Assembly (NCBI RefSeq): GCF_007164525.1
Contig: NZ_AP019791.1
Location: 2,715,501-2,779,500, forward strand
Direction of reading: 5' to 3'
From: Rubrobacter xylanophilus
GTDB lineage: Bacteria > Actinomycetota > Rubrobacteria > Rubrobacterales > Rubrobacteraceae
DNA length: 64,000 bases
In this document: in pieces, positions 47,641-50,735 of the stretch
How positions within the stretch are numbered: the first letter of the stretch is position 1
Layout of the letters: each line of letters starts with the position of its first letter
Translations under genes and position numbers: made by a program
Notes under the pieces: generated by a model
Databases searched by the model: none
What the model saw: the letters and a program-made list of their open reading frames with translations, nothing else
Told to the model about the DNA's origin: nothing

Positions 47641-48399
47641 CCAAGAAGACGGTGCTCTTCGCGCCGCTGAGGCTGGTGGCCAAGGTTCATCACCGGGCTT
47701 TTCTCGAGATCCTCCAACACAACGCCACGTTGATCCGAAGGTCTCGGGGGCGCCCGTGGTAGAGGCCGTAGCGCACCTGCTCCACGAAGCGCATCTCCCC
47801 GGGCCTCAACCCTTCCTCGCCCAGCTTCCCTCTGCACCCATCTTCTCTTCGGTTATGCAGCTGCCCTTCTTGATGCACACCACATAGTCGAGTCGGTGGT
47901 GCTCGAGCCAGGCGATGGAGCCGGTCCGGTGGAAGCCTCGATCGGCCAAGACTATACGGGACGAACCCCGACAGGCAGCGCCCCGACGACGGCCAAAAGA
48001 GTCTCCTGCTCCAGCTGGTTCTGGCTCTTGGCAAGCCGGCAGATGGTCCCGATCATAGCCCGGTTGCAAAGGGGCAGCGCCCGCCCTTTGCAGGGGTATG
48101 GCGATCTTCAACACCTGGTAGCGCATCCGAGAGCCCGAGGGAGGGCGGCATCGAACATCGTCCAGTCGATGGCCAGGGCCAAGAGGCGGGGGGAAACCCA
48201 GGCGGGCGGTGGTGTAGGGTGCCAAAGCCGGCTGCACCTCCCGGGCGTCCACCCGCTCGTTACACCTATGAAGAGCCAGAGCCTCTGTTTGCTTTTTCAG
48301 GGTGGCGCTCACCAGAAGAGAGAGGTTGGTGGTTTGGGTGGGAGCGAGGAAGGGCATCGCGGTGTTGATGGCTTTCTGCACGCGGTTGTGCCATGGCAC
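47641..48399 (-). pseudogene. Degenerate DDE (IS4-like) transposase
   Basis: Fragments in different minus-strand frames line up as one transposase: an N-terminal part with INTAMPFLAPTQTTNLSLLV, the first catalytic Asp in ALAIDWTMFD (about 48150-48180), the second in IVLADRGFHRTGSIAWLEHH with DYVVCIKKGS, and a C-terminal part with EEGLRPGEMRFVEQVRYGLY. At least two frameshifts separate them. No flanking inverted repeats were found. Confidence 0.7.
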
Positions 48400-48505
48400 T
48401 TGGGCGGAACCCCCTTTGGCGGATGGTGCTCTGGCGACTCCAGACTATCCCGGGAGGTTTCGCTCTTTCATCGTTGGTGGGTACGCGTCAGGCAGAAATT
48501 CACCG

Positions 48506-48534
48506 TTGACAGAACGGTCGGTCAGGGGTACACT
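48506..48534 (+). promoter_or_regulatory. Strong sigma-70-type promoter of the ABC exporter operon
   Basis: TTGACA (48506-48511), a 17-base spacer and TACACT (48529-48534). ACCGT (48502-48506) and ACGGT (48514-48518) form an inverted repeat over the -35, a possible repressor site. Transcription should start near 48541, leaving a leader of about 300 bases before the first gene. Confidence 0.75.
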
Positions 48535-48540
48535 GCGTGA

Positions 48541-48760
48541 GCTGTTAAGTTTTGTTAAGGACGGAGCGAAAGGAGACGGGACCTTTGGCATGGGGCATCC
48601 GTAAAGTTCGCGGTCTTACGGGACCGAACCCGCTGTTTGCGGCGGGCGAGGTGTGCCCCGAGGTCCCTGGTGCGATGAGGCACTGACACCCTAGAACCGA
48701 GAAGGGTTTTCTCAGGGGGCCTCCGGGGCGAAGGACCCGGGGGCTCCGGTTTCTCTTGCG
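48541..48760 (+). ncRNA. Structured 5' leader, candidate riboswitch or attenuator
   Basis: Potential helices in order: GGGGCA (48592-48597) with TGCCCC (48654-48659), enclosing GTTCG..GTC/GAC..CGAAC (48606-48629) and CCGC/GCGG (48630-48642); then GTGC/GCAC around a GATGAG loop (48670-48683); GAGAA/TTCTC (48699-48713); and CCTCCGGG/CCCGGGGG (48720-48743). AACCGAGAA at 48695-48703 could instead pair with parts of CCGGTTTCTC (48746-48755), giving mutually exclusive folds. It matches none of the riboswitch consensus sequences I know. The region to 48847 has no other gene. Confidence 0.5.
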
Positions 48761-48847
48761 CGGGCATTCGCTCCGACGCCAGGGCTTCTTCCGCGGCTCC
48801 CGGTCCGGCGGGTGGTATCCGGTTGGTTGTGGAAGGGGTTTGGCGAG

Positions 48848-49093
48848 ATGCACAGGGATTTCATGTACGAGATGGCGCGGGAGCGGATGGCCGAGTATCG
48901 CCGGGAGGTGGAGCGCCGGAGGAGGGCGGGGGTTTCGGGGAGGCGCGTCTGGCGGCGCTGGGTCGCCCGGTGCCTCTTCGAAGCTGCCTTCTCGGTGGAT
49001 GCCGAGGAGGGCTGGAGGGCGGTGTGGGACAGGATGTGTGCTCCCGGGCGCCGGGGCCGGAGGTCTTCCGGCGCCGGGAGGCTCACGGGGTGA
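48848..49093 (+). CDS. Small basic protein coupled to an ABC exporter
   Basis: 81 residues from ATG 48848, with GGAAGG at 48831-48836. Very rich in Arg: MARERMAEYRREVERRRRAG, then SGRRVWRRWVARCLFEAAFS. The first half should be an amphipathic basic helix; there is no membrane segment or signal peptide. Its stop overlaps the start of the ABC ATPase gene as GTGA, so it is very likely translated and functionally linked. No family recognised; a regulator, chaperone or substrate of the exporter are all possible. Confidence 0.6.
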   Translation: MHRDFMYEMARERMAEYRREVERRRRAGVSGRRVWRRWVARCLFEAAFSVDAEEGWRAVWDRMCAPGRRGRRSSGAGRLTG

Positions 49094-49896
49094 GCGAGGG
49101 GGTGGTGGTGGAAGCGCTCGGGATGAGGGAGGTGCACAAGCGGTTCAGGAAGCGGCGGGGCGAGGTGGTGCGTGCCCTGGATGGCGTCTCGCTGGAGATC
49201 CGGCGGGGCGAGGTGGTTGGGATCCTCGGCCCCAACGGGAGCGGCAAGAGCACGCTGGTGCGGGTCGTCTCCACGCTCGTTGTGCCCGACTCGGGGGTGG
49301 TGAAGGTCTTCGGGGTGGACGCCGTACGGCATCCCAAGCGGGTGCAGAGGAGCATGAACCGGGTGAGTGTCGAGGCCAGCTTCTTCAAGAAGCTCTCGGC
49401 GATGGAGAATTTGCTCTACGGAGCCAAGCTCTACGGGGTGTCAGACCGTGAGGCGCGTCCGAGGATAAAGGAGATCATGGGGCACATCGGCTTCGACTAC
49501 AAGCGGGCCAACGAGCCCATGGAGCACCTTTCGCGCGGGATGCAGCAGAAGGTCGCGCTGGCGCGGGCGCTTCTGACCAGCCCGATGCTCATGCTGCTCG
49601 ACGAGCCGACCACCGGGCTGGATCCAGGGAGCAAGCGGGACGTGCAGGCGTTCATCCGGCGCATAAGGGAGGCGCACGACGCCTCGATCCTGCTGTGCAC
49701 CCACGACATGCAGGAGGCCGAGGAGCTGTGCGACCGGGTCGGGATCATGGTCGACGGGCGCATCATCGTCCTCGACGAACCCCGGCGCCTGAAGGAGCGC
49801 TACGCGGTCGGCGGCCGGATGCCCACGCTGGAGGAGGTCTTCATGGCCGCCACCGGCTACACCGTCGAGGAGGCCAGCGCGGAGGGAGAGGAATGA
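49090..49896 (+). CDS. ABC transporter ATP-binding protein (ABC-2 exporter, DrrA/CcmA-like)
   Basis: 268 residues. Walker A GILGPNGSGKSTLVR, signature EHLSRGMQQKVALARALLTS, Walker B LMLLDEPTTGLDPGS and switch LCTHDMQEAEELCD. The C-terminal end PTLEEVFMAATG is typical of drug/lipid exporter ATPases. The GTG start overlaps the small-protein stop and the end overlaps the permease start by four bases. Confidence 0.92.
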   Translation: MSEGVVVEALGMREVHKRFRKRRGEVVRALDGVSLEIRRGEVVGILGPNGSGKSTLVRVVSTLVVPDSGVVKVFGVDAVRHPKRVQRSMNRVSVEASFFKKLSAMENLLYGAKLYGVSDREARPRIKEIMGHIGFDYKRANEPMEHLSRGMQQKVALARALLTSPMLMLLDEPTTGLDPGSKRDVQAFIRRIREAHDASILLCTHDMQEAEELCDRVGIMVDGRIIVLDEPRRLKERYAVGGRMPTLEEVFMAATGYTVEEASAEGEE

Positions 49897-50735
49897 CCGG
49901 GAGAGCGGACGAAAGACCCCGGTGGAGGGCGGAGGCCATCGCCGTCTGGGGCTACGTGCAGCGCAACTACTTCCTCACCAAGCGGTACTTCATGTGGGAG
50001 GTCGTGTGGCTCGTCTACATCACGGCCAACGCCCTCGCCATCACCTACATCGGCGCCGGGGCCGAGGAGTTCGGCAGCGGGATAGACACCGCACGCCTGA
50101 TGACCTTCCTGCTGATCGGGGCGCTCGTCTGGAGCTACCTCTCGGTGCTCTTCGACGTGCTCTCGGAGACCGTGAGCTGGGAGCGGTGGGAGGGGACCAT
50201 CGAGTACACTTTCATGAGCCCGGCGAGCCGGGTGACACATCTTCTGGGGATGGGGCTCTACGCCGTGTTGTACGGTATAGTCCAGATCTCGGTGATGCTC
50301 GGGGCGGTCTCGCTCTTCTTCGAGCTGGACCTCTCGCGGGCGAACTACGCGGGGGCGCTGCTGGTGCTCGGCGTGGCGAGCGTCTCGCTCGTGGGCTTCG
50401 GGATCATGGCGGCCGTCCTGCCGCTCCTCTCTCCGGAGAAGGGCCAGCAGGTGAGCTACATCGTCTCCTCGGTGCTGCTGCTCGTCTCCGGCGTCTACTA
50501 CGACGTGGAAGTGTTGCCGGGCTGGATGCAGTTCGTCGCGAAGTTCTCGCCCGTCACCTACGCGCTGGAAGGCATCCGCGCCGCCCTGCTCGACGGGGCG
50601 GGGCCGGCGGAGCTGGGGGAAAGCGTGCTGGTTCTGCTGGTGATGGGCGTGGCCTTCGTGCCGCTCGGGCTCTTCGTGTTCCACCTCGGGGAGCGGTACG
50701 CCAAGCGAACCGGGAAGCTCAAGCGGAGCGGGTAG
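49893..50735 (+). CDS. ABC-2 type transporter permease
   Basis: 280 residues with six membrane segments. FLTKRYFMWEVVWLVYITAN, WERWEGTIEYTFMSPASRVT and the ending SGVYYDVEVLPGWMQFVAKF, SPVTYALEGIRAALL are the ABC-2 permease landmarks. It forms the channel for the ATPase encoded just upstream; drugs, lipids or polysaccharide are the usual cargo of this class. The ATGA overlap couples its translation. A stem-loop begins on its stop codon. Confidence 0.9.
   Translation: MTGRADERPRWRAEAIAVWGYVQRNYFLTKRYFMWEVVWLVYITANALAITYIGAGAEEFGSGIDTARLMTFLLIGALVWSYLSVLFDVLSETVSWERWEGTIEYTFMSPASRVTHLLGMGLYAVLYGIVQISVMLGAVSLFFELDLSRANYAGALLVLGVASVSLVGFGIMAAVLPLLSPEKGQQVSYIVSSVLLLVSGVYYDVEVLPGWMQFVAKFSPVTYALEGIRAALLDGAGPAELGESVLVLLVMGVAFVPLGLFVFHLGERYAKRTGKLKRSG

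Follow-up and report, generated by a model that had tools for sequence, protein, structure and literature searches.

Previous studies have reported that, in the bmrB-bmrCD system of Bacillus subtilis, a terminator located before a multidrug ABC exporter is under the control of leader translation and ribosome slowing, and that translation-inhibiting drugs induce read-through (PMC4191407). The actinobacterial whiB7/wblC uORF attenuator is described as sensing several classes of ribosome-targeting antibiotics (summarized in PMC12121999). The toiL uORF of E. coli topAI is a general sensor of stalled translation, whatever the exact stall site, and acts on translation and Rho-dependent termination (PMC12121999). 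In the present study, we analyzed a leader in Rubrobacter xylanophilus that invites comparison with these systems. The window, i.e., the whole 64,000-nucleotide stretch of DNA that was analyzed, covers positions 2,715,501-2,779,500 of a genome that forms a single contig of 3.02 Mb, and every feature described below lies on its forward strand unless otherwise stated.

The window leader resembles bmrB in its short leader ORF, in the part that the ORF RNA would play in a terminator/antiterminator choice and in the ABC exporter downstream, a likeness that was drawn here from sequence alone. Three elements of a bmrB-type leader were predicted, namely a Shine-Dalgarno (SD) sequence and ORF that are also present in relatives, an intrinsic terminator, and an antiterminator between the ORF and the terminator, which is weak in the largest clade. 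In contrast, the bmrB terminator lies inside a 53-codon ORF, whereas that of the window leader lies about 30 nt past the stop codon, and the window has an intervening small basic protein gene and a DrrAB-like ABC-2 exporter. We know of no sequence relation between the two leaders. The window leader shares with whiB7/wblC, to judge by the literature, the position of an actinobacterial uORF 5' of its gene; whiB7/wblC controls a transcription factor, whereas the window leader precedes an exporter operon (PMC12121999). Unlike the mechanism proposed for the window leader, toiL does not act through a hairpin terminator (PMC12121999). The surveys consulted on attenuators and structured RNAs in bacteria did not mention Rubrobacter, and the Rubrobacter literature on leader peptides or riboswitches contained no title concerning this leader; we therefore regard it as an undescribed attenuator of an already known type.

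Promoter, leader and operon genes

A sigma-70 type promoter (TTGACA-17-TACACT, 48506-48534; 0 expected in shuffles) was identified, with an expected transcription start at about 48541, in agreement with the textbook promoter noted in the first-pass annotation. Alignment with a same-genus genome revealed that homology begins at 48496, just 5' of the -35 element, and that the DNA immediately 5' of this point is unrelated. Between the two genomes the leader (48535-48759) was 92.5% identical, higher than the 88-90% of the three structural genes, and identity reached 97.3% between the leader stop codon and the terminator end. A search of Rfam matched no family, either at the gathering threshold or, at E <= 10, beyond chance, which is consistent with the earlier statement that the leader fits no riboswitch consensus known to the annotator. 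Single-sequence folding of the leader gave a z-score of -0.58, no better than shuffles; since the folding energy is at chance level, support for the leader rests on conservation and covariation instead. The promoter and the structured leader of about 305 bases were thereby confirmed and look functional. Shortly 5' of the promoter, on the minus strand, a degenerate transposase remnant was observed (47690-48400; a weak DDE_Tnp_1 match with an E of 0.0011, below the cut-off), and the same-genus genome carries unrelated DNA there.

The leader is followed by a gene for a small basic protein (48848-49093; 81 aa, pI 11.5), whose start had been placed at GTG 48812 and is moved to ATG 48848 by homology; the protein had no Pfam or NCBIfam match. 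Next come a DrrA-like ABC ATPase (49090-49896), whose candidate GTG start at 49090 overlaps the preceding stop, and a DrrB-like ABC-2 permease (49893-50735; 280 aa). The ATPase matched PF00005 (ABC_tran) with 107.5 bits and the permease PF01061 (ABC2_membrane) with 58.3 bits, the pair of domains predicted for an ABC-2 exporter. The best models were those of the daunorubicin exporter DrrAB, i.e., TIGR01188 for the ATPase (239.3 bits vs. a curated cut-off of 312.45) and TIGR01247 for the permease (58.8 bits vs. 223.05). Because both scores are far below the cut-offs, the pair was taken as a related exporter and was not assigned to DrrAB. Paralogues of the small basic protein were also observed elsewhere in family genomes (e.g., L048, L055 and L057), without this leader.

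Leader ORF and competing pairings

The DNA search was convincing for the leader in the same genus only, and other relatives were reached via the exporter and the small protein. The alignment comprised 22 Rubrobacteraceae leaders: 20 belong to exporter operons, and two (G005 and G013) lie before the small protein alone. All 22 showed a common order of promoter, SD, leader ORF, terminator-like hairpin and small basic protein, and each had an SD-equipped ORF of 28-49 codons. In the window, the SD AAAGGAG (48569-48575; anti-SD duplex of -8.7 kcal/mol) is followed by an ORF with a TTG start and a TGA stop (48585-48686; 33 aa, MAWGIRKVRGLTGPNPLFAAGEVCPEVPGAMRH), and an ORF was found at the equivalent place in 22 of 22 leaders. 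The roughly 300 bases that had been annotated as a structured, untranslated leader are thus structured, but given this ORF they are probably not untranslated throughout.

The distance from the leader-ORF stop to the hairpin was 26-37 nt in all 22 leaders, mostly 29. The ORF spans a conserved core (GTGYGYCCYGAKGTCC in most of the leaders), which lies within the ORF, yet is conserved as RNA irrespective of frame: the reading frame across the core differs in four genomes (G010, G011 and G022/G014), and in these the stop is still 26-37 nt 5' of the hairpin. In the largest clade, insertions of 27 and 63 nt in the ORF keep the frame. In one leader (L033, from G020), the in-frame 63-nt expansion was observed to repeat the conserved core, the ORF having 49 codons. 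The leader peptide showed no sign of purifying selection, the synonymous share being approximately random; the residue was altered in seven of the eight codon changes between two same-genus leader ORFs. The translations differed from clade to clade, and those of the largest clade resemble one another at the N terminus (MHIRRTNIGIPVFGG...). As amino-acid changes are not avoided, it seems that the ORF, and not the peptide, is kept. The +2 frame of the leaders is frequently open as well, so an open ORF by itself is modest evidence. The first-pass annotation had named conserved protein coding in the leader as an objection to its own proposal, and such conservation was found for the ORF but not for the peptide sequence. 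Two candidate features of the peptide were rejected: a conserved arrest peptide, since purifying selection was not detected, and pausing at the rare AUA codon seen in the largest clade, since the adjoining ATPase genes commonly contain AUA.

By complementarity, the 3' half of the leader ORF has two alternative partners, the ORF's own SD/start region and the terminator 5' arm. A closed multi-branch element had been annotated at 48592-48659; it corresponds to a pairing, P2 (GGGGCA, 48592-48597, with TGCCCC, 48654-48659), inside a domain closed by P1, whose 5' strand (GGGACC, 48578-48583) lies between the SD and the ORF start and pairs with GGTCCC (48662-48667). The two downstream hairpins noted earlier (48699-48743) were recovered as a small GAGAA/TTCTC hairpin 3' of the leader stop (48699-48713) and a terminator-like hairpin (48716-48747), which with its T-rich tail GGTTTCTCTTGC extends to 48759 and is conserved in the 22 leaders. 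The alternative pairing partner was misplaced: the segment proposed, 48746-48755, is in the terminator tail, and the tails outside the genus do not match in the alignment. The partner that is conserved is a different one, segment 48654-48668 of the leader ORF, hereafter the switch strand. This strand may serve either as the 3' strand of P1/P2 or as the 5' strand of an antiterminator with 48715-48730, which overlaps the terminator 5' arm, and its RNA is conserved even where its reading frame differs.

In the alignment of 22 leaders, the terminator hairpin was paired in 192 of 198 cells, with compensatory changes. The U-tract is weak in Rubrobacteraceae (GGTTTCTCTT, the window's tail, and AAGTTTTGC), so strong termination is not assured. 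In the window's clade, the antiterminator duplex comprises 15 pairs (-30.0 kcal/mol), and no other clade's terminator pairs equally well with the window's switch strand. Exact 10-nt antiterminator complementarity (CCUGAUGUCC/GGACAUCAGG) was found in four genomes of three genera, and the pairing CCCGAUGUCC/GGACGUCGGG in another genome. Both P1 and P2 showed two-sided changes; the most variable pair of P1 (GGACC/GGTCC) was C-G in 11 cases, A-U in 4 and U-G in 3, and the equivalent pair of P2 in relatives was A-U in 14 and G-C in 7. Covariation was measured by clade permutation of duplex energies, with one leader per clade and 8 clades. When terminators were swapped between clades, the cognate antiterminator pairing was almost never reached (p median 5e-5, worst 2.7e-4), and swapping of the P1/P2 5' strand gave a median p of 4.6e-4 (worst 1.8e-3). 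By this permutation test, which took the place of the covariance model and R-scape analysis proposed at the outset, covariation was found for the antiterminator as well as for P1/P2. These results demonstrated that compensatory changes between clades preserve two mutually exclusive pairings. The main weakness of the covariation case is the largest clade, whose weaker antiterminator could not be told apart from shuffled pairings in 11 of 12 members.

Ribosome-masked folding, proposed mechanism and rival explanations

Folds were calculated with the RNA cut before the terminator 3' arm and with a ribosome footprint of -14 to +15. It was observed that the antiterminator remained in most leaders when the ribosome was on roughly the first half of the ORF and was lost when the ribosome was on the second half; in the window it had 14 pairs at codons 1-11 and about 0-2 at codons 21-32. 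In the ribosome-free fold of the window before the terminator is complete, P1/P2 and the antiterminator were about equally likely. In full-length equilibrium folds with the ribosome mask, the terminator mostly won, with little switching. The switching must therefore be kinetic, and a decision during transcription was assumed.

On these grounds, we assign a probability of roughly 77% to the reading that the leader is a ribosome-mediated transcription attenuator of the small protein-ATPase-permease operon. Exporter synthesis would then probably be limited to times of slowed translation, as under ribosome-targeting antibiotics. Without translation, the RNA would fold into P1/P2 and the terminator would form (OFF). 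A ribosome reaching the leader stop would cover the switch strand and then sit about 30 nt before the terminator, which would again form (OFF). A ribosome held in the first half of the ORF would block P1/P2 and leave the switch strand free, and the free strand would pair with the terminator 5' arm before the 3' arm is made (ON). Given the lack of peptide conservation, slowing or stalling of the ribosome early in the ORF is a likelier trigger than a single arrest peptide or amino acid; candidate causes would be ribosome-targeting drugs or similar stress. The pump probably exports a compound of the ribosome-targeting type. That the exporter is controlled by the very compound it expels, as was suggested earlier, is still something we infer.

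Four other explanations were weighed. In a ligand-binding riboswitch, a P1/P2/P3 domain would be the aptamer for the exported compound and would control the terminator, with the ORF incidental. A closed multi-helix domain with covariation, a terminator-like hairpin with an alternative pairing and a highly conserved 3' part of the leader all suit such an RNA. However, the conserved domain includes the SD and start codon in 22 of 22 leaders, the stop-to-terminator spacing is maintained despite frame change, and the domain interior is highly variable in length and sequence, accepting in-frame insertions of 27 and 63 nt; with no Rfam relative that would place it in a known aptamer class, we consider a riboswitch very unlikely. 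Little probability is likewise left for an amino-acid-specific attenuator, in which starvation for a leader-encoded residue would stall the ribosome: although the architecture equals that of the trp and ilv leaders, the leader translations lack the run of regulatory codons, their peptides vary between clades, and exporter genes, not a biosynthetic operon, lie downstream.

A leader of the erm/msrD type, where a particular peptide and a particular drug together stall the ribosome, would account for an ORF upstream of a resistance-type gene and for the N-terminal similarity inside the largest clade, but amino-acid constraint was not detectable and the same-genus codon changes mostly alter the residue, and we regard this explanation as unlikely. 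Lastly, the terminator and the GC-rich hairpins might form no switch, constitutive partial termination setting the basal level and the ORF and complementarities being accidental. GC-rich DNA, the chance-level z-score and the weak antiterminator of the largest clade would agree with this, whereas two mutually exclusive pairings covary between clades, leader conservation exceeds the coding level and Thermomicrobiales share a similar design, so that an accidental arrangement appears scarcely probable. Of the two possibilities raised by the first-pass annotation, riboswitch or ribosome-mediated attenuator, the second was thus supported by the leader ORFs and the covarying pairings, and the first was disfavored.

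Ribosome-mediated attenuation, the preferred reading, would account for an unassigned structured leader with no need for a new riboswitch and would provide a concrete switch, with three strands and their coordinates, in little-studied bacteria. It also points to ribosome inhibition as a signal to which this exporter family responds. The frame change under conserved RNA would serve as natural evidence that translation of some leader ORFs matters through ribosome position and not through the peptide.

Distribution in Rubrobacteraceae and Chloroflexota

The ATPase was found at E <= 1e-60 in 21 of 39 family genomes. The small protein precedes it in most of the loci examined and sits, in the family, between the leader and the exporter. 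A core-plus-terminator pattern matched 14 family genomes, exactly once per genome and in every case at this operon; it had no match among 357 genomes from other families of the phylum, and a reversed control pattern gave 0 matches. At two loci, L044 (G013) and L045 (G005), the leader and the small protein persist and no close exporter copy was found; at L044 (around 850-1520, reoriented) only a permease tail follows the small protein, as if the exporter had been deleted.

The nearest exporters outside Rubrobacteraceae were those of Thermomicrobiales, with a permease about 62-68% identical, and the small protein was not detected at them. A leader ORF with a terminator-like hairpin 29-33 nt past its stop was present at 5 of 12 Thermomicrobiales/Chloroflexia exporter loci, and in three of these five leaders a run of six T forms a strong U-tract. 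Of the remaining loci, six were without a terminator (strict scan) or leader ORF, and one was without an ATPase on its contig. The antiterminators of L115, L116 and L117, in which the second half of the ORF pairs with the stretch reaching to the terminator 5' arm, had energies of -46.0, -43.5 and -35.9 kcal/mol, respectively (0/300 shuffles as good); the strands of L116 and L117 also pair with one another's. The Thermomicrobiales GGGGAGCAGTGTGCCC...GGAGGTC resembles the window's GGCGAGGTGTGCCCCGAGGTC, and it is possible that the leader sequences are homologous. We tentatively raise, as a rather doubtful extension, that one attenuator lineage accompanies the exporter in both Actinomycetota and Chloroflexota and that what it reports is the speed of translation itself, the pairings and stop-terminator distance being kept while peptide and frame are free. 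If true, the leader would sense many ribosome inhibitors independently of its peptide, and the small basic protein would form a further part of the response. In addition, at four loci from Anaerolineae and other Chloroflexota (L128, L131, L137 and L142), a terminator-like hairpin of the AAGGCCGTGGGC...GCCCACGGCCTT type was observed 5' of the ATPase, in some cases with a short ORF before it; these hairpins are perhaps further attenuators.
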